Below, in pieces: positions 9,578-40,400 of a stretch of DNA of 64,000 bases. Made by a program: the position numbers and the translations under genes. The stretch is from Bacteroides bouchesdurhonensis (GTDB lineage: Bacteria > Bacteroidota > Bacteroidia > Bacteroidales > Bacteroidaceae), in contig NZ_LT707006.1 of assembly GCF_900155865.1 (NCBI RefSeq), forward strand, positions 2,582,577 to 2,646,576. The letters run 5' to 3'. Numbering within the stretch: the first letter of the stretch is position 1; every line of letters starts with the position of its first letter. A model generated the notes under the pieces. That model was not told where the DNA came from and searched no databases. It worked only from the letters and a program-made list of their open reading frames with translations.

Positions 9578-10909
9578 ATGGCCAAAAAGACAGATTCAGA
9601 TAATGATACCGGTATCATCCGGCAGTTCAACGAACTGAAAAAGAAGCATCCGGATGCCATGCTGCTGTTCAGACGGAACAGTTTCTATGAACTCTATAAG
9701 CAGGATGCAGTCAAGGCTGCCACAGTGCTTGCCATCGAGATTGCAAATAGGATGCTGCCTGACTACAAGAGACCTGTAAAGGTTGCATCATTCCCACAAT
9801 CGGCACTTGACGTTTATCTGCCCAGACTGATACGTTCCGGAATCAGGGTTGCAATCTGTGATGCCTTGAACAGTTCTTTGAAGAAGAAGGCCGGACAGGA
9901 TAAAACTGAAATTAATGACAGAACCATTCAAAACAATACAGATATGGGAAAGAAGAAAAAGGAACAGGGTGCGCAGGAAGCTCCTGACAGAACAGTGGAG
10001 AACACTGTTGATGTAAAACCTGCAAGGGAAAAGAAGTCGAAGGCCAAAGTTGAAACCAAAGCTGAGACCAAAGCTGAAACCGGGACGGATAATGAGGTAA
10101 AGACCGAAAAGAAGGACGAACAGAAAACGGAAACAGCCCAGGAACGAAAGCCCCGTGAGCCGCAGATGGTGACTGCCAACGGTGAAAAGGTTACTCATGG
10201 TCATGCCTACCAGAGTACTACCAATCCTGCCGACTGGTACTTTACCGCAAAGATTGACGGACAGCAGCTCAAGCCGCAGAAGATGGATGCAGCCGACCTT
10301 GCTGCCTATCAGAACAAGGAAATGACGGTGCCGCAGCTGATGGAACGCTACTATCCGACAAAGCTGATGCCGAAGGTATCTGAGGAAGCCTTCCGTATGC
10401 CGATGGAGATTGCAGGACCGGACGGTTCCATAACCGTTAACAAGTTCAATGTCTATAAGGAGAAGGACGAGCAGCGTCCTGACTTTGGGAAATACAAGTT
10501 CTATGTTCAGGTTGGGGATACCAACATGTCTGCCGTGGCTTCACGCCAGGACCTGAATGCCTACTTCGACAGGGTGGCTACTCCAAACCAGCTTATTGAG
10601 AAGAACTTCGGGGAACGTCTGCATCTGAAATCCGCATACGAGAAATATCAGCTTCCTGAAGGTGTTGACCCCAAGGGTGTGCGTGTAGCCAAGGACAGGA
10701 ATGACAACAAGTGGAAAGTGTCGGTTGACCTCGGAGAGAAAGGACAGACTTCCCGGCATGAAATCTCCTTCGATGACGGCTATTCGCTTTTCAAGACCAA
10801 GACGGCCACAAGGGAACAGATTGCAGCCAAATATCTGAATACGGAGATAACCGGTATGCTTGCTGCCAACACCGCAAAGGTGGAGAAATCGGCTTCGATG
10901 AAAATGTAA
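9578..10909 (+). CDS. MutS domain I fused to DUF3945-like regions
   Basis: The first 100 residues match domain I of the mismatch repair protein MutS, the mismatch-recognition part (QFNELKKKHPDAMLLFRR then FYELYKQDAVKAATVLAIEI, then IRSGIRVAICDAL). The clamp, lever and ATPase domains of MutS are absent, so this is not a repair enzyme. A Lys/Glu/Thr-rich linker with repeated ETKAETKAET follows (about 130-195), then two DUF3945-like segments (about 200-430). The protein has 443 residues. Domain I alone may bind distorted or hemimethylated DNA, a use known from polyvalent proteins of conjugative elements and phages. It follows the preceding gene after 11 bases and is probably co-transcribed. Confidence 0.8.
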   Translation: MAKKTDSDNDTGIIRQFNELKKKHPDAMLLFRRNSFYELYKQDAVKAATVLAIEIANRMLPDYKRPVKVASFPQSALDVYLPRLIRSGIRVAICDALNSSLKKKAGQDKTEINDRTIQNNTDMGKKKKEQGAQEAPDRTVENTVDVKPAREKKSKAKVETKAETKAETGTDNEVKTEKKDEQKTETAQERKPREPQMVTANGEKVTHGHAYQSTTNPADWYFTAKIDGQQLKPQKMDAADLAAYQNKEMTVPQLMERYYPTKLMPKVSEEAFRMPMEIAGPDGSITVNKFNVYKEKDEQRPDFGKYKFYVQVGDTNMSAVASRQDLNAYFDRVATPNQLIEKNFGERLHLKSAYEKYQLPEGVDPKGVRVAKDRNDNKWKVSVDLGEKGQTSRHEISFDDGYSLFKTKTATREQIAAKYLNTEITGMLAANTAKVEKSASMKM

Positions 10910-10938
10910 CATAATCAGAAAACTAAAATACAAGTTAT

Positions 10939-11169
10939 ATGTCAGCTAAAATGAATCATGAGGAGCTTGTGGAGCTTCTGCAGGAGGGCAAAATCGGTTT
11001 CCTCCGCTTTGTTATGGACAGTGAGAATGCAGATGATTATCTGGAGTGGTGCCGTTCACACGGTACGGACCCTTCGGATGAATCGGCTGAGTTCTATGTG
11101 GAACAGACGGACATCGAGCAGATGGACCGTCAGGTAATGGATGACGACAGCTATGGCATCTGGAACTGA
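10939..11169 (+). CDS. Small acidic hypothetical protein
   Basis: A 76-residue protein with many Glu and Asp residues and no recognised family. It contains a short helical N-terminus (MNHEELVELLQEGKIGFLRF) and an acidic C-terminal tail. Its last 29 bases overlap the start of the ardC gene in another frame, which suggests translational coupling. Small acidic proteins in this position could act as DNA mimics or as chaperones for ArdC, but nothing in the sequence proves either. Confidence 0.65.
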   Translation: MSAKMNHEELVELLQEGKIGFLRFVMDSENADDYLEWCRSHGTDPSDESAEFYVEQTDIEQMDRQVMDDDSYGIWN

Positions 11170-11597
11170 CACTCAGGGAAACAGCGGACAGGCGGCCATA
11201 GACCGATTCGCTGCAATGATGATTGAGCGTATGCAGCAGATGAAGGATACCGGATGGAAACAGGGATGGATTGGCGGCGCATCGGGTTATGCCGGACTGC
11301 CGCAGAACGTGGGTGGCCGCAACTATTCAGGTTCCAATTCCTTCTTCCTTCAGATGCATACCGCAGCCATGAACTACCAGCTTCCGGTATATCTGACCTT
11401 CAAGCAGGCACATAACCTGAAGGCTCATGTCCTGAAGGGTGAAAAGGCCTTCCCGGTGGTGTATTGGGATATGATGATAAAGGACAGTCACGGCAAGAGG
11501 ATAAGCACGGAGGAATACCGTGCAATGAGCAAGGAAGAGAAGAAGGATGTGGATGTCATTCCTTTCATCAAGTCATTCCCGGTGTACAATGTGGCGC
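11141..11597 (+). CDS. ardC: ArdC-like antirestriction protein, exon 1 (N-terminal ssDNA-binding domain)
   Basis: First part of an ArdC-type antirestriction gene split by a group II intron. ArdC protects incoming single-stranded DNA from host restriction. The 152 codons here hold the ArdC N-terminal domain: RFAAMMIERMQQMKDTGWKQGW, GRNYSGSN, YLTFKQAHNL and HVLKGEKAFPVVYW are typical. The reading frame stops eight codons into the intron. If bases 11597 and 14098 are joined, the codon CAG forms and the protein reads VYNVA-Q-TNLAEVQPE, as expected for the family, giving 445 residues. The ATG at 11153 is a possible alternative start. Full function depends on splicing. Confidence 0.88.
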
Positions 11598-14097
11598 GTG
11601 CGTCCGTAATGGTCGCGTAATAAATATCTCGATAATAAGAGATTAGGTTAGTGTTCAAAGTTTAGAGATAAACAATAGACCTATCCCCGACTGACTTACT
11701 TGGAGAGGAAACTCAAAGAGAAACACAGCACGTCAGCAAAGCGATAAGTTAGCTAATTGCCAAGCTACGACTGAATTGCAAGGGGAAAGACAGATATGAG
11801 GATGAAGCCTGATTGGTTAAACGATAGTTCAGTGACACAAGTTGTAGTTGTGGCGGAAGGCAGTTACATACGTCATATCGTGGTACTACCGCCTATTGAG
11901 CCAAGGCGAGTAGCAAGAACAAACCATGACACGACCGCAGTAAGCGGAGAAAAGAACGAAAGTCGCATCCGACAATCTGTTACCAGACGTTATTACGTGA
12001 TTAAACGGAGATTACCTAAATCGGAACGCCGAAAAGCTATGAGGATTTGCCTCTGAATATCCGACAAGGTAACGGAACTCCCGTAGTAGTCCGAGCAAGG
12101 GAAAACCTTGTACATGGCGAAGGGGAGTAGTTAGTAACTTTAATACAAACAAAAGAAAACGAGAGATTCGTTATGAGAAATCCAGAGATTGTATTAAACA
12201 CATTATGCCAACACAGTAAGGTCTCGGACTATAAGTTTGAGCGACTGTACCGCATTCTGTTCAACAAAGAGATGTTTTGCATTGCCTATCAGCGCATTTA
12301 TGCAAAGCCAGGCAATATGATTCCAGGCACGGATGGTCAGACCATAGACCAAATGAGCATTGGAAGAATCGAACGTATCATCGAAACACTTAGGAATGAA
12401 TCCTACAAACCGAATCCTGCAAAAAGGGTGTATATACCAAAGAAGAATGGCAAGAAACGCCCTCTTGGTATACCATCCGTAGAGGATAAGCTTGTGCAAG
12501 AGGTAGTTCGGATGATTCTTGAAGCCATCTATGAGGGGCACTTTGAAAGCACCTCTCATGGTTTCAGGCCTCATAAGAGCTGCCACACCGCTCTGACAAG
12601 CATTCAAAGGACTTTTACAGGTGCAAAGTGGTTTATTGAGGGAGACATAAAAGGCTTCTTCGATAACATAGACCACGATGTACTTGTCAGCATTATGCGA
12701 GAGCGTATTGCAGATGAAAGGTTTCTTCGCCTTATCAGAAAGTTTCTCAAAGCAGGGTACATCGAAGACTGGAAGTACAACAACACGTATTCGGGAACTC
12801 CTCAAGGTGGAATAATCAGCCCAATTTTGGCAAATATCTATCTTGACAAATTCGACAAGTACATGAAAAAGTACATTTCACGATTTGACAAAGGGAAAGA
12901 AAGGTCTTATAACAAAGAATACTGTTGTCTCAACACGAAAACAGTAAACCTAAGAAAGAAATGGAAAGCGGAAACAGATGAAACTGTAAAAGCTGAATTA
13001 TTGACGAAAATAAAAGCCATGCAAGAAGAGAAAAACAAGATGCCATGCAGACTTCCAATGGATGAAAATTATCGGAGATTGAAATACGTGAGGTACGCAG
13101 ATGATTTTCTGATTGGAGTTATAGGGTCCAAAGCAGATTGTGAACAAATAAAGGCGGACATCACAGAGTATATGATGAGCAACCTTAAACTTGAACTTTC
13201 TGCCGAAAAGACACTCATAACCCATGCGAAAGAGAACGCAAAGTTCCTCGGTTTTGACATCACCGTCAGGACATTGGATGTGTTTAAAAGGAACAGCAAA
13301 GGAATCAAAAAACGAGAATTTGTTGGCAAGGTCATGCTTATGCTCTCTTCTGAAACTGTGAAACAGAAGCTTCTTAGTTACGATGCTGTAAAGTTTACGA
13401 ACGAAAACGGCAAAGATGTATGGAAGCCGAAATCACGGGAGAAAATGGTCGGTATGAAACCCGAAGACATCCTTGCACAATTCAACTTGGAAATCAAAGG
13501 CTTCTACAACTATTACTGCATAGCCAACAATGTTTCGTCAACATGTGCCGATTTCGGCTACATTATGGAGTATAGTCTTTATATGACTCTTGGTCAAAAA
13601 TTAAGAAGACATGTAGGGCAAATCAGAGACAAGTACCGTAAGGGCAAGAATTTTGGCATCCCATATAAGGATGCAAAAGGCAAAGAACGGTTCAGAATAC
13701 TCTATAAAGAGGGATTCAAACGTAAAAGCGCATTAACGGACGATTTTCTCGACCGTACCCCTTGCACTATGTATGTTCCCAAACCAAGCCTCGCAGAAAG
13801 GTTGAAACAACAAACCTGTGAAATGTGTGGTGCAACTGACACTAACGTCGTGATGCACCATATACGCACTCTTGTTGGGCTAAAGGGAGATACTCCATGG
13901 GGCAAGTTGATGTTGTCGAGACATCGTAAGACACTTGTAGTGTGTGAATCCTGTTATGCTAAAATACAGCTCAATGGAAAATAATGTGAGTTTACTAATG
14001 GAGAGCCGTATACATGGAGACATGTATGTACGGTTCGGGGGCAGGTACGGAGAAACCTACTGCCGAAAGGCAGAAAGGCACTCTGTACCGAGCCTAC
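11598..14097 (+). mobile_element. Complete group II intron inserted in ardC
   Basis: A self-splicing ribozyme and retroelement of 2500 bases. The 5' end reads GTGCG, the standard group II start. Domain V is at 14003-14036 (GAGCCGTA ... TACGGTTC with a short apical loop). Domain VI follows with a bulged A at about 14091, seven bases from the 3' end, which is where the branch point should be. The end is ...GCCTAC. Removing it restores the ardC reading frame exactly, which fixes both borders. Domains I-III occupy about 11598-12172 and hold no gene. The encoded maturase lies within domain IV. Structure and open frame look intact, so it may still splice and move. Confidence 0.93.
12173..13984 (+). 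CDS. ltrA: Group II intron reverse transcriptase/maturase with HNH endonuclease
   Basis: The intron-encoded protein helps the intron RNA fold and splice, and copies it into new DNA sites. The 603 residues show the RT fingers and palm (PGTDGQTIDQMS, KRPLGIPSVEDKLVQEVVR, SHGFRPHKSCHTAL, EGDIKGFFDNIDH, GTPQGGIISPILANIYLD) with the catalytic YADDF at about residue 307. A maturase X domain follows, then a C-terminal HNH/zinc region (CEMCGATDTNVVMHHI and later CESC). All expected catalytic residues are visible, so it looks functional. The ATG at 12173 is followed by a typical group II N-terminus. The exact class (chloroplast-like or other) cannot be fixed without a tree. Confidence 0.95.
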   Translation: MRNPEIVLNTLCQHSKVSDYKFERLYRILFNKEMFCIAYQRIYAKPGNMIPGTDGQTIDQMSIGRIERIIETLRNESYKPNPAKRVYIPKKNGKKRPLGIPSVEDKLVQEVVRMILEAIYEGHFESTSHGFRPHKSCHTALTSIQRTFTGAKWFIEGDIKGFFDNIDHDVLVSIMRERIADERFLRLIRKFLKAGYIEDWKYNNTYSGTPQGGIISPILANIYLDKFDKYMKKYISRFDKGKERSYNKEYCCLNTKTVNLRKKWKAETDETVKAELLTKIKAMQEEKNKMPCRLPMDENYRRLKYVRYADDFLIGVIGSKADCEQIKADITEYMMSNLKLELSAEKTLITHAKENAKFLGFDITVRTLDVFKRNSKGIKKREFVGKVMLMLSSETVKQKLLSYDAVKFTNENGKDVWKPKSREKMVGMKPEDILAQFNLEIKGFYNYYCIANNVSSTCADFGYIMEYSLYMTLGQKLRRHVGQIRDKYRKGKNFGIPYKDAKGKERFRILYKEGFKRKSALTDDFLDRTPCTMYVPKPSLAERLKQQTCEMCGATDTNVVMHHIRTLVGLKGDTPWGKLMLSRHRKTLVVCESCYAKIQLNGK

Positions 14098-26929: not shown

Positions 26930-27166
26930 TCATACTTTAGGTATCTTTATATAAACAGAGTCATTGGTGGTAGACACCAATAAATCCTTAACATCGACCT
27001 CAAGTACTCTTGCAATCTCAACTAAAGTTTCTATTGATGGTTGTGAAACGTTTGTACACCATTTTGAAACAGTAGCAGGGTCTTTTTGCAAAGCTTCTGC
27101 AAGCCATTTGTTAGTTCGTTTTTTCTCCACTAAAACGACCTTAATACGATTTATATCTTTTGCCAT
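26930..27166 (-). CDS. XRE-family transcriptional regulator (control protein)
   Basis: A 78-residue protein consisting of one helix-turn-helix domain of the Xre/Cro type (NRIKVVLVEKKRTNKWLAEA, then DPATVSKWCTNVSQPSIETL). It is transcribed in the same direction as, and 152 bases ahead of, the restriction operon, the usual position of a C (controller) protein that times expression of methyltransferase and nuclease. The 152-base gap holds short inverted repeats (for example TATCA/TGATA near 26877) that could be its operators. Confidence 0.88.
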   Translation of the reverse strand: MAKDINRIKVVLVEKKRTNKWLAEALQKDPATVSKWCTNVSQPSIETLVEIARVLEVDVKDLLVSTTNDSVYIKIPKV

Positions 27167-27251: not shown

Positions 27252-27276
27252 TTCTATTGCGTTTTATGCAATAGAA
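27252..27276. terminator. Perfect 9-base inverted repeat at the left border of the hairpin array
   Basis: TTCTATTGC (27252-27260) pairs with GCAATAGAA (27268-27276) around a 7-base loop. It could be an operator for the XRE gene, a terminator, or the first member of the hairpin series to its right. Another short inverted repeat ACCATT/AATGGT lies at 27362-27376. Confidence 0.5.
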
Positions 27277-27374
27277 TAAAGTGGTTGTCAGATTTGAGTG
27301 ACTCTTGCTGCACTGAATAGCTTTACAGTATTTTAGGCATATGACATTAACAACTTATGTTACCATTAGAAATG

Positions 27375-27702
27375 GTCTGAAAAACGGAGACAAACAGTCC
27401 GCTCCGTTGATACAGGCTAGAGCTTGCACTTCCGAAACGGACAATTTCCTTGAAGACTTACCTTTAAATACAGGCAAGCTGTTCAGACTGTTCGTATTTC
27501 ATGCGATACAGGAACAACTTGCCTTCTAAAACGGAAACTTACCGGTTGACTTATCTCGTATCTCGATACTAGGCAAGTTTCAGCCGACAGGTTTATACAA
27601 CCATACAGATAAATCAGGACAGTTGCCAAAGACAGAACCATTAAGGTTGCGCTACTCTTCACTTCAAAGACTCTGACATTGGCAACTGATTATCGATAAC
27701 AT
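27375..27702. repeat. Hairpin-rich tandem repeat, unit 1
   Basis: First copy of a repeat of about 328 bases, beginning near TCTGAAAAACGG. It contains four inverted repeats in a row: one around 27396-27442 (TCCGTT/AACGGA core), one at 27473-27523 (GGCAAG/CTTGCC outer stem with GTTC/GAAC inside), one at about 27543-27586 (CGGTTGA/TCAGCCG), and one at 27620-27688 (CAGTTGCCA/TGGCAACTG outer stem). Short AT-rich linkers separate them. No credible reading frame runs through. Stems are better kept than loops when compared with unit 2, which suggests selection for structure as RNA or single-stranded DNA. Confidence 0.85.
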
Positions 27703-28029
27703 GTCTGAAAACGAAAACAAGCAGGCCGTTCCGATGATGCAGGCTAAAGCTTGCAATGCCGGAACGTCCTATATCCCTGAATACTCGTCTTAAAATACAG
27801 GCAAGCTGTTCCGACTGTTCGTATTTCATGCGATGCCGGAACAACTTGCCTTATGCTACGAAAACTTACCGGCTGACTTGCTTCGTATCCCGATACCAGG
27901 CAAGTTTCAACCGACAGATTCATACAATCATGCAGATAAATCAGGACTGTTGCCAAAGACAGAGCCTTTAAGGTTGCGCTGCTCTTCACTTCAAAGGCTC
28001 TGACATTGGCAACCGGTTACCGGTGGTTT
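27703..28029. repeat. Hairpin-rich tandem repeat, unit 2
   Basis: Second copy, starting at the same TCTGAAAACG phrase (27704, offset 328 from unit 1). The four hairpins recur: 27727-27766 (CGTTCCG/CGGAACG with an inner GCAGGCT/AGCTTGC), 27800-27850 (GGCAAGCTGTTCCG with CGGAACAACTTGCC), 27870-27913 (CGGCTGACTTGC with GCAAGTTTCAACCG) and 27949-28013 (GTTGCCA/TGGCAAC with a long inner GAGCCTTT/AAAGGCTC arm). In hairpins 1, 2 and 4 this unit pairs better than unit 1, and some differences are compensatory (for example TGTTCAG...CAGGAACA in unit 1 and TGTTCCG...CGGAACA in unit 2). Confidence 0.85.
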
Positions 28030-28100
28030 GTCTGAAAACGGATACTATGCTCCTCAGAAATCTTTGAATACTGAATATCAGGAAATCATTGGAGCATCAT
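28030..28100. repeat. Partial third repeat unit with one hairpin
   Basis: The phrase TCTGAAAACGG appears a third time at 28031, offset 327 from unit 2, but only one hairpin follows: ATGCTCC (28047-28053) with GGAGCAT (28091-28097) around an AT-rich loop. The hairpin stem sequence differs from the first hairpin of units 1 and 2. After it the similarity ends. Confidence 0.7.
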
Positions 28101-28424
28101 AGCCGGAACCGTTTCTTATGTGCAAAGGTACTGCGGACTGGAGAAACGCCAAGTGACGCTTGCGCTTTCAGTCGGAGGACTTGACGGCAGCCTTCCGCAA
28201 ATTTTCTCATACCTCAAAAATTTGGGTATTCCGTCTGCATTCTCTGACTTCACACTTGTCTTTTTCTCCCTTTGGTCCGCAGTCACAAATGCACATAAAA
28301 CGGTTTTTCCCGGCCATGAAGCTCAATGAGCTTTACTGGAGGGAAAAGAACTGGAACTTCAAAATTCAAGTGTTATGCGAGCAAGAAGAATGAGTATCAA
28401 ACAATCTTTTAAATTTTTACTGAT
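28101..28424. other. Gap without a supported gene
   Basis: This 324-base stretch between the hairpin array and the DUF2958 gene holds short open frames (for example 28120-28329) that look non-coding: they lack a start context and a recognisable protein. A perfect inverted repeat AAGCTC-AAT-GAGCTT is at 28318-28332. Base composition is mixed and includes a T-rich tract near 28260. It may be leader sequence for the downstream gene. Confidence 0.5.
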
Positions 28425-28784
28425 ATGTGCAGATTGATGACGACACAACTGGCGGAAGCTCTGGAGGGTTATCCGCTCTACTCCCAGGACGGCAAGGGAA
28501 AAGAGGCTGTTTGCCGTGCGGTTTTTGCCCTTGGTTCTGTAAGGTGGTTTATCCTTGAAGGAAACAGGGAGGATGACGATGTGATTCTATTCGGTATCGT
28601 AGTCGGACTCATGGAGGATGAATACGGGTATGTTTCCCTCAATGAGCTTTCTGATGTGGAGCTTGACCTGAGTGCTCAGGGGCTTGGCAAGCTTCAGGTA
28701 AGACAGCAGCAGAACTTTAAGCCGGTTCCGCTAAAACTGATTAAAGACAGCAGACTTCAGGAATTTCTTGCAAGGTTTGAATAG
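28425..28784 (+). CDS. DUF2958 family protein
   Basis: A 119-residue protein of the DUF2958 family, small proteins common on plasmids and ICEs. The typical order of motifs is seen: a short N-terminal helix with LPLY-like phrase (EGYPLYSQDGKG), a central strand WFILEGNREDDDVILFGIVVG, and the family hallmark EYGYVSLNELSDVELD. Function unknown; association with transfer and antirestriction regions is usual. An alternative start is the ATG at 28437 (MTTQLAEALEG). A terminator-like hairpin follows at 28805. Confidence 0.8.
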   Translation: MCRLMTTQLAEALEGYPLYSQDGKGKEAVCRAVFALGSVRWFILEGNREDDDVILFGIVVGLMEDEYGYVSLNELSDVELDLSAQGLGKLQVRQQQNFKPVPLKLIKDSRLQEFLARFE

Positions 28785-28804
28785 GCTGTATGAAAACAGA
28801 AGTG

Positions 28805-28835
28805 GCCGGTCCTATCCGTCACGGACAAGACCGGC
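28805..28835 (+). terminator. Hairpin after the DUF2958 gene
   Basis: GCCGGTC (28805-28811) pairs with GACCGGC (28829-28835), with an inner CCGT/ACGG pairing. The stem is GC-rich but the T run after it is short, so termination may be partial. Confidence 0.55.
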
Positions 28836-28883
28836 TGCTTATTATAGCAGGTAAATGAAAACAAAACTATAATTGTATGGTAA

Positions 28884-29267
28884 ATGGAAAATTGTCGTAA
28901 TATTTTTAATATCTCTGCCCGGCATGGATGGAGCGTTTCTATGGAAAACATGGATGGAATCCAGTTTCTCAATTTCAAACGGAAGACTTCGAGCGGTGTG
29001 CCGTTCTGCTTTACCATTGAAGCCGGTGACGGTACAGCCGGCTGCATAGCAAAAGAAATATTCTCTTTCGTCAGTGCCGTTGTCCCTGAACAATGTGCAA
29101 GGGAATGGATGATTCAGTCAGGAGCAATGGAGCCGACGGAGTTCCTTCAGGCCGTGGCTGACATGGAGGATGTCAGGTTAAGGGCATGGCTGCTGGCTCT
29201 TGAACTTGCAGCTATGAATGCAAAATGTAATCTTCTGGATACCATTCCATGGGACAGACTGAACTAA
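28884..29267 (+). CDS. Hypothetical protein of ICE accessory region
   Basis: A 127-residue soluble protein that I do not recognise. It seems mixed in structure, with an N-terminal aromatic region (NISARHGWSVSMENMDGIQF) and a C-terminal helical part rich in Ala, Leu and Met (MEDVRLRAWLLALELAAMNA). It shares the GC content and codon style of the flanking ICE genes, which supports a real gene. The 3' end overlaps by 4 bases the end of the convergent excisionase-like gene. Confidence 0.65.
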   Translation: MENCRNIFNISARHGWSVSMENMDGIQFLNFKRKTSSGVPFCFTIEAGDGTAGCIAKEIFSFVSAVVPEQCAREWMIQSGAMEPTEFLQAVADMEDVRLRAWLLALELAAMNAKCNLLDTIPWDRLN

Positions 29268-29936: not shown

Positions 29937-30249
29937 CTGTCACCCCTGAAACGGGTGCATTTTATTATCTGAAAACATCTGATGCGAAAGGGATACGTGG
30001 TTATCCTAATGTACCATTACAGCCACAGGTTTGTTCAGCATGCCTCTTCAGATATTTTTTTGCAAAAGTATCTCCGGCATTGCAAACGTCAAACACAGGG
30101 CTGAAAATCTTCCTCAAACGGGGTTGAGCGTATTTTCAGCTTTCCTTGAAGTTTGCCTTATTGAATGCCTGCGCTTCTGAGAACTGCAAAAAATATCCTT
30201 CGGGCAAGCTGAAAAAACTTGCAGACAGAAGGGAAAAAAATCAGAGCGT

Positions 30250-30810
30250 ATGGTACAGATGGACGAAAGCATCAGAAAACAGTTGGAAAAGCCTCAGACA
30301 TGGTTCTGCAAGTATTTTCCCAAACGTATTCAGAATGTGGGCGAGAAGGAAATCGCCGACAGACAGTTGGTTTATGACTTCAAGGACGGAAGGTCTCATG
30401 AAGCGGTGGCACAGATGACGGCAGCAAGAATGATTGAGGAACACGGCAGCAGATGCTCACAGTTGGTATTCATTCCGGTTCCGGCATCATCGGTAAGAAA
30501 GAATGAAATCCGGTATATGGACTTCTGCAAAAGGGTATGTGAACTCACAGGAGCAATAAACGGGTATGACCATGTAAGGGTATGCGGAGAAAGACTTGCT
30601 ATTCATGAAAACCGTAAGGCTGAAAAGGAAATCAGAAGGGTGAGCATCATCGAGTTTGATGAAGAGTGGTTCAGAGGCAAGGCAGTCATAGTCTTCGATG
30701 ATGTAATAACACGCGGATTAAGTTTCGGTATATATGCGAATCAGTTGGAGAGTTTCGGAGCGAATGTCATTGAAGGCATCTTCCTTGCAAGAACCCATTA
30801 TAAAGTATAG
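30250..30810 (+). CDS. Phosphoribosyltransferase-fold protein (ComF-like)
   Basis: A 186-residue protein with the PRPP-binding signature VIVFDDVITRGLSF near residue 150, typical of type I phosphoribosyltransferases and ComF-like proteins. Other PRTase landmarks are the N-terminal helical part and the FIPVPASS strand near residue 75, which is similar to the pyrophosphate loop in ComF proteins. The substrate is unknown. Just 4 bases separate it from the SLOG gene, so the two are co-expressed. This pair is seen in several Bacteroidetes mobile elements, but its function is not established. Alternative upstream starts are not supported. Confidence 0.82.
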   Translation: MVQMDESIRKQLEKPQTWFCKYFPKRIQNVGEKEIADRQLVYDFKDGRSHEAVAQMTAARMIEEHGSRCSQLVFIPVPASSVRKNEIRYMDFCKRVCELTGAINGYDHVRVCGERLAIHENRKAEKEIRRVSIIEFDEEWFRGKAVIVFDDVITRGLSFGIYANQLESFGANVIEGIFLARTHYKV

Positions 30811-30814
30811 AACT

Positions 30815-31303
30815 ATGAACGGAATATTATCAGAAAAATCAAAGTCACTGGCTTTCACGGGACACAGAACTGTTCCCGTAGAAAGGCAGGATGAAATAAG
30901 TGCACGGCTTGTTGAAGCCGTGTCCGTCGCCTGCAAATCGGGTATAACTTGCTTCTTCTCAGGCATGGCCATGGGATTCGACCTGATGGCCGCTGAAACT
31001 ATATTGTCACTGAAGGGGAAGTATCCGGAAATCCGGCTAATTGCCGTTGTACCTTTCAGAAGACAGAGCTGCCGGTGGCCGTCAATGGAAAAGGAACGTT
31101 ATCAGAATATAATTTCCAGGGCTGACCAGGTTATCGTATTGAGTGAACACTATTTTCACGGGTGTCTTCTAAGGCGCAATGACTTCATGCTGGAGCATTC
31201 ATGTGGCGTGATAGCCTTTTATGACGGCAAGCCTTATGGAGGAACATTCTATACCTGCAGGGAGGCAAGGAAAAGATGTATGGATATAATCAATCTGTAC
31301 TGA
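30815..31303 (+). CDS. SLOG-domain protein (DUF1273/YpsA-like)
   Basis: A 162-residue protein of the SLOG superfamily, which binds nucleotides or nucleotide-derived signals. The signature starts with SLAFTGHRTVP at residue 10, then FFSGMAMGFDLMAAE near residue 48, and VIVLSEHY near residue 107. The DUF1273/YpsA branch is widespread in Firmicutes and Bacteroidetes, and SLOG proteins are often parts of defence or signalling systems. The start at 30815 gives a short spacing of 4 bases from the phosphoribosyltransferase gene; earlier starts would overlap it deeply. Confidence 0.85.
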   Translation: MNGILSEKSKSLAFTGHRTVPVERQDEISARLVEAVSVACKSGITCFFSGMAMGFDLMAAETILSLKGKYPEIRLIAVVPFRRQSCRWPSMEKERYQNIISRADQVIVLSEHYFHGCLLRRNDFMLEHSCGVIAFYDGKPYGGTFYTCREARKRCMDIINLY

Positions 31304-33027: not shown

Positions 33028-34191
33028 TTATAAAAAAGGATTTATAGATAAATTCAAGCCAAAAGAATTATTTATTAAATCTTGGAATTTAGTATATCTT
33101 ATTTTGTAATTTTCGATATTCTTTGTAGAACTTTCAATAGAAGATCTAAAATCAATATCTTCTAAACAAAGTTTCTTAAATGCATCAATGAAGTTTTGTT
33201 TATGTTCGATAATTTTATTATCCAAATGCAGAAAATAAAAAACTTCCACTTCAAATAAGACTTTATTAAATCTATTAGAAAAATCATTTTCATCATATTT
33301 TCGACCAATAAATTTATAGTCTCCAAATATATCTTTAAGTAAATTAATTGTAGAATTTATTTTATCATATTGATCCATTATTTCAGAATCAATTTCTGCC
33401 CATTTGCTATTTATTTCACCCATTTTTTCATCCAAAAACCTTTTTAAATTACCTTTGTATTCCTTGGGATACTTTATAAAAGCAAAAAGTCTTAATAGAA
33501 TTTCAATATCCCTAAATCTTTTATCAGGTTCAGATAAATTCATTACGGAATGAATGGGTTGCAATGTATTTGTAATTTCTACTAGATAATCAGCAAATTT
33601 CCCTCTATTAAGAGCTTGTCTTAATTCTTGAGTAGACAAAGATTCAGAACCTGAATTAAGTCGGTAAAAAATATCATATAAAATTTGAATATCCTTGAAA
33701 TTCGTTATAACAGTACAGCGCAATGAAGAGTTATCAAATTCACGTTTAGATTTATCATCTAAATCTATATATTTTGTTCTGTTTAACTCTTTTAATACCT
33801 TAAGTCCCTTCAGTACTGGTCTATCCCAATACTTATACTTTTCGTTATCAATAAATCCTGCAAGCGTAAGCAATCTCTGTTTTCCATCTATAACAATAAA
33901 AGAACGTTTTTTATTAGGATTCTCAGCTAGAACAATCTCAGGAACCGGATACCCCATTATTATAGATTCTATAAGTTTACTTCTTTTATCATCGTTCCAT
34001 GCATTTCTTCTTTGAAATTTTGGATTAAGATCTATATTACCAATATTAATCTGATTAAATATTGTTTCTATAGTCCAATCCCTAGCATATACAACAACAT
34101 CAGAAATATCTATATTTTGTATATCTTCACTATCTGATTGATTATCAATAATTATTTCAGTTTCTATATTTCTATTTTCAATATCACACAT
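33028..34191 (-). CDS. DUF262 (ParB/GmrS-like) domain protein
   Basis: A 387-residue protein with an N-terminal DUF262 domain, the ParB/Srx-like nucleotidase fold also found in GmrSD restriction enzymes. The signature parts are DLNPKFQRRNAWNDDKRSKL (about 55-75), the substrate loop IIMGYPVPEIVLAE, and FIVIDGKQRLLTLAGF (DGxQR motif, about 103-118). The C-terminal 200 residues are helical and specific to this group; the GmrD-type HNH domain (DUF1524) is missing. The HEPN gene downstream may supply the nuclease activity. The pair forms a small AT-rich defence-like unit with its own promoter. Confidence 0.85.
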   Translation of the reverse strand: MCDIENRNIETEIIIDNQSDSEDIQNIDISDVVVYARDWTIETIFNQINIGNIDLNPKFQRRNAWNDDKRSKLIESIIMGYPVPEIVLAENPNKKRSFIVIDGKQRLLTLAGFIDNEKYKYWDRPVLKGLKVLKELNRTKYIDLDDKSKREFDNSSLRCTVITNFKDIQILYDIFYRLNSGSESLSTQELRQALNRGKFADYLVEITNTLQPIHSVMNLSEPDKRFRDIEILLRLFAFIKYPKEYKGNLKRFLDEKMGEINSKWAEIDSEIMDQYDKINSTINLLKDIFGDYKFIGRKYDENDFSNRFNKVLFEVEVFYFLHLDNKIIEHKQNFIDAFKKLCLEDIDFRSSIESSTKNIENYKIRYTKFQDLINNSFGLNLSINPFL

Positions 34192-34217
34192 AACAATTAA
34201 TACATTTAAGTTTTATA

Positions 34218-34225
34218 CAAAGTTA
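34218..34225 (-). promoter_or_regulatory. Candidate -7 box of the DUF262/HEPN pair
   Basis: TAACTTTG on the minus strand fits the TAnnTTTG box, 27 bases ahead of the DUF262 start. No TTTG at the best distance is seen. The rest of the AT-rich gap (34192-34444) shows nothing else I can support. Confidence 0.4.
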
Positions 34226-34444
34226 ATGATTATTTTTTCAAATTCCCGTCCAATACTAAGTATTTGCTCTTATTAAATATAAAACAATTCAATATAGAAT
34301 TAAATAATTTACATAAATCGTTTGAACAAAAACAATATAAACACAAATGTAACCATTACTTTAGAACAATGAAACACTCTTATCTATAAAGTATATAATT
34401 ATATCATTTTTTTAGAAGAGCTTATATAATTGTATATTAATTAC

Positions 34445-35542
34445 TTAAATAATAAAGTTAGGTAACAATAGGACCTCTTTTTCATGACTAACCTTAATAG
34501 ATATAACCTGGCTATCAGTTAGAGTACAGGACAACAAATCAGTTTCTCCGGAACCCAACAGCAGCACCTTCTCATTCAGTTCCTTTCTGGTATTTTTCTC
34601 CCAATCATATATCATAAACATCCCTCTTTGGAATAATTCAGAACCATTCTTGTTGTTTGTCAGGTTTAAGCCTCTCTCGTCAAGTCTTACAGACCAGTCA
34701 GAGCCATAGTCTCTGAAGGTATATGTAGTACCATAGCTTACCGTTTCTTTTCCTATCAGTCTACCAACAAGAATATCTACATTCGTATAAGGATTGCGTT
34801 TATAAATCGGTTCATCGGTTTTTGAGTCACTTTCCGTTCTCAACCGACATGCATTGATCATGCCTTTCAGTAATTTGTCCTTAACCAGCGGAAAGGTAGA
34901 AACTGATGATTTGCTTTCCATCCAGTATCCGTGTTTCCTCGCATATCCGTTGATACATTTCTTACCGTCACAATCCTTATCAGGATTCTTACCAGTACCA
35001 CATTCGTATATCTGCTTTTTGCCTTTTATTCTCTCGCCGCATTCCGTTGCTTCAAAACCGTAATACAGGTACTCAAAATGAAGCAGCAAATAATATTCAA
35101 AACTACGACTTGAAAAAGCAATATTTACCTTTTTGCCATCTATTATCTTATTGGCTTCGGCCATGCCTTCCTCATGTTTAGGATGTTCGTCCTTATCATA
35201 TACTGCCCAAGATTCATCCACTCCTTCAGACATGATTTTTCTTGCATACAACACCCATTTTAATGGTGGAACACCGGTTATAACTTCATCTTCAGCAACA
35301 TCTTTCTGTCCACCTGACTTGACTTTACGTTTCTTCCCTTTATAGCTTCCTCTGGAAGAATCCGCTTCAGCATCTTCAACCGGTATATTAGGCTGAGGAA
35401 TTGTACGTACATCAAAATCCTTGCTGTCACCATAAAACTGGTCACACAAGTCTGTAAAGAATAATGGTTCGGTCTTATCGCCTTCACACACTATTCTTAT
35501 GACATACTTACTATGACGTTTATTTTCACTCGTTCTTGCCAT
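34445..35542 (-). CDS. RloB-like protein, partner of AAA ATPase (AbiL-like system)
   Basis: A 365-residue protein of the RloB group: YVIRIVCEGDKTEPLFFTDL at residues 13-32 is the typical start, in which the Glu is part of a TOPRIM-like metal site. A later SSRSFEYYLLLHFEY block (near 150) fits the second part of that fold. RloB-type effectors occur beside ABC-like ATPases in the AbiL abortive-infection system. The first 17 bases overlap the end of the ATPase gene, so both are co-translated. This example has a long insertion (about 50-115) and a C-terminal domain not seen in the smallest RloB proteins. Confidence 0.85.
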   Translation of the reverse strand: MARTSENKRHSKYVIRIVCEGDKTEPLFFTDLCDQFYGDSKDFDVRTIPQPNIPVEDAEADSSRGSYKGKKRKVKSGGQKDVAEDEVITGVPPLKWVLYARKIMSEGVDESWAVYDKDEHPKHEEGMAEANKIIDGKKVNIAFSSRSFEYYLLLHFEYLYYGFEATECGERIKGKKQIYECGTGKNPDKDCDGKKCINGYARKHGYWMESKSSVSTFPLVKDKLLKGMINACRLRTESDSKTDEPIYKRNPYTNVDILVGRLIGKETVSYGTTYTFRDYGSDWSVRLDERGLNLTNNKNGSELFQRGMFMIYDWEKNTRKELNEKVLLLGSGETDLLSCTLTDSQVISIKVSHEKEVLLLPNFII

Positions 35543-36773
35543 AGTCTACAAACAGTTTCTCCAGTGGTTTTAATGAAGGAACACCTCCAAATTTATTATT
35601 CAAATACCATTTGGCAAACAATGTATCCTCTCTTACGTCCTCAAAATCGGAAAGAGAGAATATCTCTGATACTCCCTGCCCATTCTTTTCCGTAAACCAT
35701 ACCTGGTCTTTACGGATAGTATTCTGGTCAAGCAGATTCACATCATGGGTTGTAAAAATCAATTGGGCATTATTCCTGTTTATTCTTTCATTTCTGAAAA
35801 TGTCCACAATAAGCTGTGTTATGTAGGAATGTAGCCCGGAATCCATTTCATCTATAAAAAACGGACTTCCATTCTGCAGTGCCTGTAATATATAACAGCC
35901 TATAAGGAAAAGTGATCTTGTACCAAAAGATTCTTCTTTTAAAGGCAAATCTGCTATTTTGCCCAAATCCTCACCATCATTATATAGACCATGCAGGCTT
36001 GTAACTTCAACGCCATCACTGCGCTTTTCCAGCTGGAAACCGGTCATACCAGTATCCGCAAATGCCAGAAATTCAGCAAGCAGTTTCTTGTTTTCAGGTC
36101 GTGAATAAAGCCATCTGACCATTTCCTTATCTTCACCCAACATGGTATCTTCATGATAACCGTTGGAAACAATCATATCTGCCAGATATTTTGCGGCATT
36201 TGTTATCGGTTCGCATGGTGTATCCTTCAGGAACTTGGAAATCAGCAACTGGTTCTTGAACACATTGAAAGGCTTTGAAGAAGAAAGGCTTGATCCGAAT
36301 TTAATAGTATCTGATTCTTTATCTTCTGAAAGCAAAGTGCGTTCATAAAGTTGTGTCTGTTTACCGTTTGGATAATAAATCAGCGACTCTGACTCTATCT
36401 GCAATCTGGTAAAACTGACTTCATATTTATATCTGATTCTCTGAGTTATAAACTCCATTGAAAAACCTATTGGTGCATCAGCCGTAGTATTGTCAAATTT
36501 GAACGGCTGATACAATGGAATATCATCACCAACCCTGTTGTCAAGATTGTGAACCCATCGTCTGAACCTATATAAAAACTTTATGATATTAGTCTTACCT
36601 GAAGCATTTGCTCCATAAATCAAAGAGATTTTCAAAGCCTTCTTTAATCCTTCTGCATTGGTCTCAACTTCACATATATTATCAACCTTAGCCTTTGAAG
36701 AGGTCGGCTCTGTCGTAAAGGAACATACATCCTTAAATGAACGGTAATTCTTAATTTCTAAATTTAATATCAT
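35526..36773 (-). CDS. AAA/ABC-type ATPase, RloA/AbiLi-like
   Basis: A 415-residue ATPase of the SMC/RecF-like (AAA_15/AAA_21) group. I start at 36773, where the typical N-terminus MILNLEIKNYRSFKD begins; the longer frame would add a basic, unlikely leader. Walker A is YGANASGKTNI (about 55), Walker B is FFIDEMDSGLHSY (about 305) and the H-loop FTTHDVNLLD is near 345. With RloB it forms an AbiL-like pair, expected to kill or arrest the host when phage interferes. A complete promoter stands in front of it, separating it from the primase gene upstream. Confidence 0.87.
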   Translation of the reverse strand: MILNLEIKNYRSFKDVCSFTTEPTSSKAKVDNICEVETNAEGLKKALKISLIYGANASGKTNIIKFLYRFRRWVHNLDNRVGDDIPLYQPFKFDNTTADAPIGFSMEFITQRIRYKYEVSFTRLQIESESLIYYPNGKQTQLYERTLLSEDKESDTIKFGSSLSSSKPFNVFKNQLLISKFLKDTPCEPITNAAKYLADMIVSNGYHEDTMLGEDKEMVRWLYSRPENKKLLAEFLAFADTGMTGFQLEKRSDGVEVTSLHGLYNDGEDLGKIADLPLKEESFGTRSLFLIGCYILQALQNGSPFFIDEMDSGLHSYITQLIVDIFRNERINRNNAQLIFTTHDVNLLDQNTIRKDQVWFTEKNGQGVSEIFSLSDFEDVREDTLFAKWYLNNKFGGVPSLKPLEKLFVDYGKNE

Positions 36774-36791
36774 ATTCTTGCATCTTTTCCA

Positions 36792-36822
36792 CAAAAATAG
36801 CCTTTTAAATTTTCTATTCAAA
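36792..36822 (-). promoter_or_regulatory. Promoter of the AbiL-like pair
   Basis: On the minus strand, TTTG (36819-36822), a 19-base spacer and TATTTTTG (36792-36799) form an excellent Bacteroidetes promoter. Transcription would begin near 36785, giving a 12-base leader before the ATG at 36773. This supports the start chosen for the ATPase gene. Confidence 0.7.
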
Positions 36823-36912
36823 GTTTTTTCTTCGTTTTTTGCGCTTTTTCTTCGCAATTTCAGTTTTAAATTCTTATCCATGGATTTCATTGAGTCTTTT
36901 AAGATGAGTTTA

Positions 36913-39900
36913 TTAAAAAGGCAGTTCATTCTGTTTGAGCTGTTGCAGGTTTATGACATTGCTTTCCGCTGGAATTTCCTCCTGGTTTTCTGCTACAACC
37001 TCAGTTTCAAGATCCAGTCCGAAAGTCTCTTTCAGCTGGAGATAATCAAAGCACAATGCCTTTGGTCGGTTTACCTTTACCTTCTTAACCTGCTCTCCAT
37101 TCACAATGTCGATGGTATAGTCAGGAAGTCCGCTTGGCAGAAGTATGGTGAATCTGTCCTGTTTCAGTCCCAGATATGAAGCATGGGATTTCAGGTACGA
37201 CATGATGGTGGACCAGTTCGAGCGGTTGGAGGTGGAACCTGCATTCCGGCTGTTGAACAGTGATGCTACGGCTGCTGTGTTCAGATAGAGAATCGGACGT
37301 GCCTCCTTAAATTCTATATCTTCTTTTACAGACAATGGGCGGAAGGATTTCATATACCTTATACGGTAATGTGCCTTCTCAATACATTTCCCTGAAGTCT
37401 GGAATCCCTGAAGCATACTCCAGAAGTCCGCTATTTCCGAACTTTCCTGAGCCAGTTCATTCTGATTGCGTATTCCCCTGACTGCCGTATCAAACAATTC
37501 TGCATAGCTGAAAGGCACGTCAATTACTGTCTCCAGCGTTCTGAAGGTGGCCAATGGAATAACCCAGTTTCCGAATATACGGTCATGGATGGTTTCATTC
37601 TCCAGTTTTGCAGCCAACTCACGCTTTGTTATGGAATATATTTCCGGAAAGTTCTTCTCAAACAGTTCCCGGCGTCCCAGTATCTCCAGGGTGAGGTGGG
37701 TTAGTCCCATGTTGCAGACTGATACAAGGTCTTCATAGGCCCTTTTCTCATTCTGGTTGAATGATGTCTTTGAAAAGGCAAGGAAGATGACACGGGTATA
37801 GAGTGCCATATCCTGGGTAGGCTTGTCCTGGCCGCAAAGGGCTACACCTGTTGTGACAATGGTCTGTGCTGCCATCCCGTCTGTATTCGTATTCTTCTTG
37901 GTCTGGCCGCCACCGCCCCAGAGTCCTTTCAGATAGGCTATCTTGCGGATGTCAAGGTCATTCTTGTATTCATCCAGTACGGCAAGGGTGTTGACGGCCT
38001 GTGATACACGGTCGTTCATGGCCGGTACGGAAGTTACTCCGAGATTGGGCGGATCTACTCCGTGCAGGAAGAAAGACTGGAGGGAAGTAGCCAGGGTTGT
38101 CTTACCGGTTCCTTTCTCACCGAAAAGGTTCAGGATGGGAAAGTGGCGGGTACGTCTGAATATGATGTCACGGAAGAGTGTGGCAAGCAGGTAACAGAAG
38201 GCTACGCTTGCATTCTCACCGAATACTTCCATCAGTCTTTTTACGTAATCATACAGCTTTATTCCGTTGCGGTTCTCATGTACCATAAGTCTCTCAAACT
38301 GGAATATCTCCGGGTTGTTGAGATATATTTTTGAAGTGGCCGGTATAAAGAAGGCCTTGCCGTTTATACTACGGACTATACCCAAATCATCAACGGTATT
38401 GAATGTACCTGCAAAAAATATTCCGTTACCGAAAACAAAGAATCCTTCAGCTGCATTCCAGCCGAGCTTTCTGATACGTTCTGCCGTATCGGTCTTTGAA
38501 TACAGGTATTCCTTTACACGGTTGAGTTTGTCTATCTTGGCCAGCCATACATAATTGCCCAGTGAGCCTACCTTCTGCTGGAAGTTGCTCAGCGAGCAGA
38601 GTTCCGACTCCTTCAGTTCTATGACCCTGCATACATTGTACATATTCCTCATGCGGAAGATTCTGGTTCCGTTTATCTCATCCTCGATATGGAATAGCGG
38701 TTCCATGATGAAGTTGGAGATTCTTGACGGTTCATCATCATCTTCACCGATGGAGTAGTAACAGTTTTCCCTGACGAACAGACCGAACTGGCGCAGCAGT
38801 TCAGCTTCACGCTGCATCTCGTTCATGGCCGCAGGTTTGTCGTTCCTTCTCCTGGCTTCCCCACGTGCCTGTGTAACGGCATCACGCCATAGCTTTACCT
38901 TGCCGTGCAGTCTGGAGAGCTGTTCTATGCACTGGTCATACACAAGCTGGTCTTTTATATAGCGCAACAGGTCTGCTATTTCCGCAACACACTTTCTTTC
39001 CTCTACCATGGAACCGGCTACCAGGAAACGTTTCTGTGCCAGCCAGATGATAAAATGTTTTTCCGGCAGTGAAGTATAGTCCTCCCTGCTGCGGATATAG
39101 CTGTCGGCATCATTCTTGGTATATTGTACTTCTCCTTCTGTCTCGGATGGTATTTCAGCGAAAGGAAGTTCTCTTACTGTCACATGGAATCCTTTTCTTA
39201 TGGCTGCAGCCCCGTTGGTCATCACCGCTTCAAATCCCGGTCCGTATGGCTTGCCTTCCGCAATATCTGAATCAGGAATGAAACAGAGTGAGGATACATA
39301 CTTCTTCAGCTGCTCAAACTGGCTGTCACTCCAGGCTGTTCCAAGTGACGCTACTGTATTGTCGTATCCAATTGACTGCATTCTAAGGACATCAGGAGCA
39401 CCTTCCACAATGATATAATAGTCGGCATCACGCAGTCTGGCGGCACGGTCAATACCGAATACTGTTTCCCCCTTGGAGTAAATCATGCTTGTTACCGAGT
39501 TGATATACTTGGGAGCTTTCCTGTTGTCTCCGATGTATCTGGCCGTATAGGCAATGATGCGTCCCCATCTGTTTCTTATGGGAATCATGATACGCTGGCG
39601 GAACATGGCGTATGTGTTGCCGTCCTCACCACGCTTGAACATGCCGAGTTCATACAGCAGTTCTTCGTTCAAAGCCTTGCTTCTGCAGAAATCCATAAAG
39701 GCCTGACCGTCCTTCGGTGCATATCCTATTCCGGCAAAGGCACAGAACTCCTCATGCCATCTGCTGTATGCATAGGCCCTGGCATCAAGGCTCTCTTCCT
39801 TGTCTGTTGCCCTGAGACATTGAAGGAAGAAGGTCTGAACTGTATCGAGAACTGTCAGAAGTGATTCCCGGTGTCTGGCTTCAGCCATCTGTTCCTCACT

Positions 39901-40200
39901 GCGCTCTTCACTGATGTATTCTACCGGAATATTATGGTTTTTGGCAATAAATTCCACAGCGGAACTGAAGGAAAGATTTTCCTTTTCCATTGTAAACGTA
40001 ATGGAATCACCGCCACGGTTACAACTGAAACAGTGGAAGAGATTCTTGCTGGGAGTGACAGCAAAGGAACCAGTCTTTTCGGAATGAAAAGGACAAAGTC
40101 CCATCAGGGTTAAGCCTTTTCTGGACAGTCTGACATAAGGACTGAGTACGTCTTCTATGGCAAGTTCCCTTACTTTCCGTATGGTTGTTTCGCTTATCAT
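36913..40200 (-). CDS. Large primase-like protein with CHC2 zinc finger, TOPRIM and P-loop domains
   Basis: A 1095-residue protein that probably makes primers for replication of the element or of transferred single strands. The N-terminus has a DnaG-type CHC2 zinc finger (CPFHSEKTGSFAV, then HCFSCNRGGD), followed by the primase catalytic core (AYSRWHEEFCAFAGIGYAPKD-like region; MIPIRNRWGRIIAYTARYIG) and a TOPRIM domain (YYIIVEGAPDVLRMQ; LCFIPDSDIAEG). The C-terminal half carries a helicase-type P loop (FGEKGTGKTTLA) and Walker B-like LAVLDEYKND, as in primase-helicases. The start at 40200 forms an ATGA overlap with the upstream HTH gene, so translation is coupled. Confidence 0.88.
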   Translation of the reverse strand: MISETTIRKVRELAIEDVLSPYVRLSRKGLTLMGLCPFHSEKTGSFAVTPSKNLFHCFSCNRGGDSITFTMEKENLSFSSAVEFIAKNHNIPVEYISEERSEEQMAEARHRESLLTVLDTVQTFFLQCLRATDKEESLDARAYAYSRWHEEFCAFAGIGYAPKDGQAFMDFCRSKALNEELLYELGMFKRGEDGNTYAMFRQRIMIPIRNRWGRIIAYTARYIGDNRKAPKYINSVTSMIYSKGETVFGIDRAARLRDADYYIIVEGAPDVLRMQSIGYDNTVASLGTAWSDSQFEQLKKYVSSLCFIPDSDIAEGKPYGPGFEAVMTNGAAAIRKGFHVTVRELPFAEIPSETEGEVQYTKNDADSYIRSREDYTSLPEKHFIIWLAQKRFLVAGSMVEERKCVAEIADLLRYIKDQLVYDQCIEQLSRLHGKVKLWRDAVTQARGEARRRNDKPAAMNEMQREAELLRQFGLFVRENCYYSIGEDDDEPSRISNFIMEPLFHIEDEINGTRIFRMRNMYNVCRVIELKESELCSLSNFQQKVGSLGNYVWLAKIDKLNRVKEYLYSKTDTAERIRKLGWNAAEGFFVFGNGIFFAGTFNTVDDLGIVRSINGKAFFIPATSKIYLNNPEIFQFERLMVHENRNGIKLYDYVKRLMEVFGENASVAFCYLLATLFRDIIFRRTRHFPILNLFGEKGTGKTTLATSLQSFFLHGVDPPNLGVTSVPAMNDRVSQAVNTLAVLDEYKNDLDIRKIAYLKGLWGGGGQTKKNTNTDGMAAQTIVTTGVALCGQDKPTQDMALYTRVIFLAFSKTSFNQNEKRAYEDLVSVCNMGLTHLTLEILGRRELFEKNFPEIYSITKRELAAKLENETIHDRIFGNWVIPLATFRTLETVIDVPFSYAELFDTAVRGIRNQNELAQESSEIADFWSMLQGFQTSGKCIEKAHYRIRYMKSFRPLSVKEDIEFKEARPILYLNTAAVASLFNSRNAGSTSNRSNWSTIMSYLKSHASYLGLKQDRFTILLPSGLPDYTIDIVNGEQVKKVKVNRPKALCFDYLQLKETFGLDLETEVVAENQEEIPAESNVINLQQLKQNELPF

Positions 40201-40400
40201 AACGTACTGAGCAGGTTCCAACAATCGATTATTGACTGGCCGGAGTATTTCGGACGGCTGACATTATTAGGATTGAGCGGTTGGATATACCCGTTTTCTC
40301 TGTATTTTTTGAGTGTCTTGTTGCTGATACCGAGTTCAGCACAGGTGCGCTTGACTGAATAGACACCGTTTGGATCGCACGCTGGTCTGATTTCTTTCAT
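40197..40400 (-). CDS. Small helix-turn-helix (MerR/excisionase-like) protein
   Basis: A 67-residue DNA-binding protein with the motif YSVKRTCAELGISNKTLKKY at residues 14-33, followed by the short wing NGYIQPLNPN. Such proteins act as excisionase or as repressors. The stop overlaps the start of the primase gene by four bases, implying that it controls or is co-expressed with the primase. Confidence 0.78.
   Translation of the reverse strand: MKEIRPACDPNGVYSVKRTCAELGISNKTLKKYRENGYIQPLNPNNVSRPKYSGQSIIDCWNLLSTL

Follow-up and report, generated by a model that had tools for sequence, protein, structure and literature searches.

The locus described here lies in a 64,000-nucleotide stretch of the Bacteroides bouchesdurhonensis genome (the window), within an integrative conjugative element (ICE) of ~70 kb. 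At its centre is a tandem array of hairpins. The array is bordered on its left by a gene for a Cro/C1-type HTH protein and a restriction-modification operon, and on its right by a conserved noncoding block followed by a module of plus-strand genes (Table 1; genes are cited by their first position). Consistent with an earlier, sequence-only reading of the region, the array contains no plausible gene. Its single ORF of at least 80 aa is an 81-aa ORF with a GTG start on the minus strand. The DUF2958-like gene is the constant neighbour of the block, and its product has a structure model with a pLDDT of 42. The product of 28884 has no match in Pfam, NCBIfam or PHROGs; its AlphaFold model reaches a pLDDT of 86, with a best PDB match of just E 0.016, which is not a good one.

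Table 1. Features of the array locus and its ICE family. Positions refer to the window, except those marked C1, which are host-genome coordinates.
Feature	Position	Strand	Details
Restriction-modification operon	26777 down to 18799	-	cargo in the window
Cro/C1-type HTH gene	26930..27166	-	head of the variable cargo
Array unit 1 (H1-H4)	27375..27702	+	328 nt
Array unit 2 (H1-H4)	27703..28029	+	327 nt; short partial third unit follows, to about 28100
H1	~27397-27442 (unit 1, by eye), 27725-27768 (unit 2)	+	GCAGGCTAAAGCTTGC as apical motif; other types have a similar one
H2	27473-27525 (unit 1), 27800-27852 (unit 2)	+	inner part near-invariant, outer stem covaries
H3	~27547-27582 (unit 1, by eye), 27874-27909 (unit 2)	+	
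H4	27620-27686 (unit 1), 27947-28013 (unit 2)	+	covarying stem, A.A / G-C / A.A interruption
Conserved noncoding block, candidate single-strand promoter A (Frpo-like)	28108..28304	-	~200-base imperfect hairpin
Sigma-ABfr promoter, left arm of block	28123..28153	-	-33 CTTG (28150-28153), N19, -7 TACCTTTG (28123-28130)
DUF2958-like gene	28413..28784	+	weak Pfam match, 22.1 bits (cutoff 21), 119-aa reading
Conserved 127-aa gene	28884..29267	+	
Candidate single-strand promoter B	30051..30196	-	-33 TTTG 30090-30093, -7 TACTTTTG 30063-30070; directly before 30250
ComF/phosphoribosyltransferase-like gene	30250..30810	+	matches far below cutoff; behind candidate promoter B
SLOG (YpsA) protein gene	30734..31303	+	also a below-cutoff match to DNA-processing protein A
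DnaG-type primase gene, ICE-borne	36913..40224	-	dnaG 281.7 bits, just under the 283.6 cutoff
Relaxases of the three ICEs	C1:2,557,995; 2,627,941; 3,870,348	+; +; -	
DUF2958-like genes of the three ICEs	C1:2,610,989; 2,680,911; 3,819,580	+; +; -	

The host genome carries three ICEs of one family. Two are arranged in tandem and meet at about 41.7-42.0 kb of the window, and the third is at C1:3.82-3.87 Mb. In all three, the relaxase and the DUF2958-like gene are on the same strand, 50-53 kb apart. The array had been placed at the head of the restriction operon, which it does adjoin, but its steady partner is the block together with the gene module. The array thus sits between changing cargo and a steadier backbone (the block and relatives of 28413, 28884, 30250 and 30734). 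By eye, the cargo side of related loci (L024, L025, L028, L029, L030 and L051) holds type I restriction, Fic-like, AbiE-like and lipid-synthesis genes. Because the same backbone junction carries different cargo, the array marks a spot of cargo exchange. A second defence-like cluster in the ICE, with GmrSD-type, RloB and AAA ATPase genes, occupies 33028-36929 of the window. Close relatives of the ICE primase (59-97% identical) are found in 16 of 17 genomes, array-less loci included, while the 17th (G790) has a match of 37% only. A search of these 17 genomes for a tie between primase and array found none; since the primase is present with or without an array, it argues neither for nor against a role.

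Two full repeat units of about 328 bases had been proposed from the letters alone, and this was confirmed by two programs. Tandem Repeats Finder reports a repeat at 27375-28013 with a period of 327, 2.0 copies and 85% matches, and a repeat search of the window found a 300-nt pair, spaced by 327, that is 85% identical. The proposed partial third unit has the start phrase in common with the full units; it is short, and Tandem Repeats Finder counts just 2.0 copies. All four hairpins (H1-H4) were located in both full units in the same order. H4 has a 19-nt loop with conserved letters, ending in TTCACTT in most aligned rows, and its stem keeps an interruption in which two A.A mismatches flank one G-C pair. 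Folded as RNA, each unit is more stable than all 100 of its shuffles (z -4.7 for unit 1, z -5.2 for unit 2). Folded as DNA, the region 27252-28130 has a z of -7.8, with none of 20 shuffles as good. We conclude that the array is a real tandem structure of conserved hairpins. It matches no described family among the 4227 of Rfam, in which, at gathering thresholds, the sole match of the window is a group II intron at 14001-14097. That intron, with a reverse transcriptase/maturase ORF, spans 12173-14097 and lies beside a PolyVal metallopeptidase gene.

The array also has copies elsewhere. Two relatives lie in the host genome itself: near C1:3,821,000 an array of a diverged type (type B, about 60% identical), and near C1:2,677,000 a single unit. 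The H4 matches of this genome are confined to the three ICE modules and are not dispersed. When the unit was scanned as DNA against 301 genomes, nine had matches, one of which (G264; 37 nt, 89%) we judge to be chance. A covariance model of H4 found matches in 17 of 399 genomes. Two of these are weak (L106 and L107, E 2.6e-4 and 9.1e-4), have no promoter or DUF2958-like match, and were likewise rejected as chance. Array region and block gave no blastn match among 72,556 plasmid records, in which the DUF2958-like protein has two matches below 60% identity. In viral contigs, a block-motif scan found none, and the single hit of an H2-motif scan reads as a chance match in unrelated sequence.

Searching at the protein level for relatives of the DUF2958-like gene returned 33 named loci, including loci of Phocaeicola vulgatus ATCC 8482, Bacteroides finegoldii and Prevotella. 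The block alignment comprises 27 loci. Outside it are L055, L061, L062 and the distant L064, two loci with too little upstream sequence (L056 and L063), and L054, which carries both block boxes but escaped the block pattern. H4 is present in 22 of the 27 block loci, which are related to one another and are not independent events, and it is always on the DUF2958 strand (in L032 as judged by motif). No H4 match was found in the other five (L051, L052, L053, L057 and L059), so the block does not depend on an array. Strong H4 matches (at least 54 bits) are all on the strand of the DUF2958-like gene, and the antisense matches are the same hairpins read backwards, with lower scores. Arrays have one to four units and always stand in one orientation relative to the block. 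At L006, in the second ICE, what appears by eye to be an IS21-like transposase and helper pair (9634-11987) lies between the block and the single-unit array.

Between diverged types, stem bases of the array change pairwise while loop letters and interruptions are kept. In H4, 91.4% of alignment cells are paired, compared to 30-44% in slid controls, a figure that is raised by dropping rows from the alignment (A3, 16 of 27 loop-pattern sequences, after removal of six near-duplicates and of five rows from L048/L050, which align out of register). Ten of the 21 H4 pairs changed on both sides. None of 500 shuffles, which ignore the relatedness of the sequences and whose counts are not probabilities, was as high as H4 in cells paired, in pairs changed on both sides or in covariation score. 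H2 and H3, whose rows were picked by motif patterns and are biased to conserved loops (2 of 16 H2 hits were dropped), changed on both sides at 8 of 20 and 4 of 11 pairs (5 and 106 of 500 shuffles as high), and no shuffle equalled the covariation score of either. Over H2, H3 and H4, between 87.5 and 91.4% of cells are paired, compared to 25-45% in slid controls. The number of further pair types is not outstanding, with 93 (H4), 62 (H2), 500 (H3) and 35 (block) of 500 shuffles as high. H1 was left out of the cross-type counts because its register shifts by one base. The sequence-only reading had described stem bases kept or changed on both sides; change on both sides holds among diverged relatives and is rare between the near-identical type-A units (1 of 66 pairs). 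Taken with the copies in other genomes, the covariation supports the view that the array hairpins are a functional structure, as judged by sequence comparison.

The block, which the sequence-only reading had not set apart, offers a clue to that function. For the conjugative plasmids F and ColIb-P9, the cited passages describe Frpo/ssi elements in which single-stranded DNA (ssDNA) folds to form a promoter; these elements serve genes of the leading region and can also prime second-strand synthesis (PMC9849209, PMC7690428, PMC8708921). Every block sequence that was folded as DNA forms one long hairpin. The left arm bears a promoter of the sigma-ABfr type, for which the consensus given in the cited passage is TTTG / TAnnTTTG (PMC7366714). 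Both boxes match in the block of 24 of the 27 loci; in L051, L052 and L053, TATCTTCG stands in place of the -7 consensus, and their other box matches lie elsewhere. In the block stem, 95.1% of cells are paired, compared to 40-55% in slid controls, and 15 of 54 pairs changed on both sides (none of 500 shuffles as high). The bases facing the -7 box vary widely, and 5 of the 8 bases of this box are unpaired in the consensus fold. Openness of the box varies between single folds, from 1 to 6 of the 8 bases, or 1 to 7 when the further hairpin sites described below are included, and is 0 of 8 in the second hairpin of L024. Frpo is also mispaired at its -10.

In double-stranded DNA, the block promoter points leftward, away from the adjoining gene 28413 and into the array. 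This direction would be the expected one were the minus strand to fold as ssDNA, in the manner of the Frpo/ssi promoters of F. By prediction, then, the block has two properties expected of an Frpo-like element: its fold rebuilds the promoter boxes, and its stem shows compensatory change. Comparison among relatives supports this reading well, and we consider the block likely to be a single-strand promoter. The role of the array itself is one that we infer.

For the array, the sequence-only reading had offered a structured RNA, ssDNA hairpins or protein-binding sites. The second option is the best supported of the three, because the Frpo-like hairpin promoter adjoins the array and because the array mismatch counts lack the clear G.U skew by which an RNA strand could be told. 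Read on the plus strand, the stem mismatches are 18 A.C to 11 G.T among rows at least 72% identical to a reference unit (leaving aside 6 of 18 type A and 4 of 17 type B), and 21 to 10 in an overlapping count, a weak lean to the minus strand. A G.T pair on the plus strand (A.C on the minus) is conserved in H1 and H2, which fits folding of the minus strand less well. The mismatch tally of the block is biased, as its structure was derived with G.U allowed, and an unbiased version has too few events. DNA energies give a slightly better fold to the minus strand in 14 of 19 arrays and favour it in 18 of 27 blocks. The lean of the array mismatches and of the array energies is the one expected if the minus strand folds.

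The main rival is a structured RNA. The block promoter, in double-stranded DNA, would read leftward through the array and yield a minus-strand hairpin RNA serving as a sponge, a regulator or the leader of the cargo operon. It keeps this standing because the promoter would also read through the array in double-stranded DNA and because the tests of strand have little force. In its favour, the minus strand has a conserved sigma-ABfr promoter (N19 spacing) immediately before the array, to which the array keeps a constant orientation; the hairpins covary, and the slight lean of the mismatches is to G.U on the minus strand. RNA energies cut both ways: they favour the minus strand in all eight type-A arrays but the plus strand in all six type-B arrays, and the other five split two to three. 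Moreover, there is neither a clear G.U skew nor an Rfam match, and in at least one relative (L038) a separate promoter-like match stands between the array and the HTH gene. An RNA of this kind would not include the block stem, leaving the covariation of that stem unexplained. We regard a structured RNA as unlikely, though well short of negligible.

Further hairpins of the same build bear on the reading of the block as a single-strand promoter. The box pair TTG-N18-20-TAnnTTTG has just eight matches in the window, and one of them, at 30093 on the minus strand, lies within a second hairpin ~1.9 kb from the block (candidate promoter B). A second hairpin of this build occurs in 12 of 25 sequences scanned, the window included. 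In double-stranded DNA, candidate promoter B would point leftward, antisense to 28413-29267, and might silence these genes after establishment. A search with the hairpin loop motif found sites in 21 of 349 genomes, and the reversed pattern in none. Among 24 distinct sites, 20 have a promoter behind the hairpin arm and four have no promoter match. All 20 promoter-bearing sites, which are related and are not independent trials, are accompanied by an ORF start on the opposite strand close to the arm, in 19 cases at 52-147 nt. Of 4200 random positions, 2036 (48%) passed the wide ORF-start test and 1002 (24%) the one limited to 50-150 nt. A single-strand promoter requires this arrangement of site and ORF, whereas an ordinary promoter has no need of it. 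At 7 of the 20 sites, a same-strand ORF start lies at most 320 nt downstream, and an ordinary promoter could serve it. Eight elements carry at least two sites within 26 kb of one contig, and in each of the eight the sites share a single direction.

By itself, the promoter motif is widespread, occurring in 172 of 349 genomes, and a strict hairpin was present at only 4 of 30 bare-motif sites, two of which are blocks of this family; the motif alone therefore proves nothing. The strict test (at least 15 and 9 paired bases) was passed by 26 of 85 promoter matches, many of them relatives, compared to 48 of 1980 random positions, and 22 of those 26 have an opposite-strand ORF start. A looser test was passed by 34 of the 85, compared to 193 of 1760 and 217 of 1980 random positions. 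An element represented by L068 and L121, with SSB-like and ArdC-like genes by eye, has three such hairpins, each before an opposite-strand ORF; three proteins behind the L068 hairpins have no Pfam match. Hairpin promoters of the same family were also seen before ORFs beginning MHSRIFQ or MPNWC in L068, L121 (G033), L140 (G701), L138/L153 (G149) and L152 (C1:3482073). In the second ICE, at C1:2654742 (L177), another precedes, in the same strand sense as the others, a 141-aa ORF (MKGTAQFKE...) that we take to be PcfK-like.

Together, these observations suggest a model of what may happen at the locus during mating. The ICE would enter the recipient as one strand, the T-strand, which should be the minus strand of the window, as we infer from gene order and promoter logic. 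In the passage cited, the relaxase usually lags (PMC11541004). The array is ~14 kb from the right end of its ICE; if relaxase and tra genes lag in this usual order, the array and the module would be leading in the circle. The presumed polarity of the relaxase and the strand needed by the hairpin promoters agree, giving two separate lines of evidence for a minus T-strand. On this strand, the block would fold into a double-stranded sigma-ABfr promoter with a largely open -7 box. In such a minus-strand hairpin, the 3' arm would be the non-template strand and RNA polymerase would leave the stem on its 5' side. It could then transcribe the plus-strand genes 28413 and 28884, moving along the T-strand in the direction of its 5' end, before a second strand exists. 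The hairpin of candidate promoter B would similarly allow transcription of 30250 and 30734 from the T-strand.

The array, which would lie just 3' of promoter A on the T-strand, may be a single-strand origin of the sso/ssi kind. As in such origins, several stem-loops are kept by shape in a fixed orientation. Its hairpins, kept for both shape and loop sequence, would bring in an enzyme to prime second-strand synthesis, which might be host RNA polymerase, host DnaG or the DnaG-type primase of the ICE. We put the chance that the array acts on ssDNA at about even, and that of the whole model, with T-strand promoters and the array as single-strand origin, at slightly under even. Priming of the second strand by the array is a tentative proposal that we hold to be rather doubtful. 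To a similar degree, we would only speculate that the locus has two parts: a direction switch set by strandedness, with transcription rightward into establishment genes from ssDNA and leftward through the array from double-stranded DNA, and a tandem four-hairpin single-strand origin whose architecture would be new.

Other explanations of the array fare worse than a structured RNA. The hairpins could form an insulator that stops or slows RNA polymerase coming from the block promoter in double-stranded DNA, shielding the cargo operon from the backbone. The placement of the array between promoter and changing cargo is what an insulator would have, but the conserved loop letters and internal mismatches exceed the needs of a terminator, and we find this explanation improbable. 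It is just as improbable, in our judgement, that the array provides double-stranded binding sites or cruciforms for a protein such as the adjoining HTH protein. An HTH gene does flank the array of the window, and by eye the arrays of several relatives too; however, among ORFs of at least 100 aa the neighbours in type-B loci L005 and L028 are others, and the stem letters are replaced pairwise rather than kept, which a reader of double-stranded DNA would not demand. Finally, a decaying transposon or a functionless integron attC-like or REP-like repeat would account for tandem units of variable copy number, hairpins and mobile surroundings, but is very unlikely given the compensatory change across diverged types, the lack of cassette genes between units, and H4 matches that are limited to the ICE modules of the host genome instead of being scattered like REP/BIME sequences.

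Single-strand promoters are already known from conjugative plasmids such as F and ColIb-P9. Bacteroidales have a main sigma factor of their own and exchange ICEs in the gut. If our reading of the block is true, sigma-ABfr hairpin promoters would explain how ICE genes could be expressed before the second strand is made, and would reveal which genes are the earliest to act; the adjoining array would be a candidate single-strand origin. Among the titles and abstract openings of the open-access literature, we found no such hairpin promoters, arrays or single-strand origin in Bacteroidales, and the word stem 'bacteroid' is absent from the main text of a 2024 survey of leading regions.

The array resembles the structured noncoding RNA families of Rfam in its covarying hairpins, conserved loops and adjoining promoter; unlike them, it matches none of the families searched. 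It also resembles the sso elements of ICEBs1 and pBAA1, as the cited passages present them, in that several stem-loops stand together in a conjugative element (PMC4595007). In such elements, shape can matter more than sequence: according to the same passages, the sso of pBAA1, with a different sequence and the same shape, still worked (PMC4595007). In contrast to these, the array has four hairpins per 327-nt unit in tandem, has conserved loops, and is found in Bacteroidales. The block, for its part, is like Frpo/ssi of F and ColIb-P9 in build. As far as the cited passages go, both would turn ssDNA into a double-stranded host promoter by means of a hairpin, both precede genes templated by the T-strand (here, the presumed one), and both occur as more than one hairpin per element (PMC9849209, PMC7690428, PMC11541004, PMC8708921). 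This likeness is one of hairpin-promoter build. Unlike Frpo/ssi, the block carries Bacteroides sigma-ABfr boxes instead of a -35/-10 pair, the hairpins described here share a loop motif of their own, and a hairpin array adjoins one of them.
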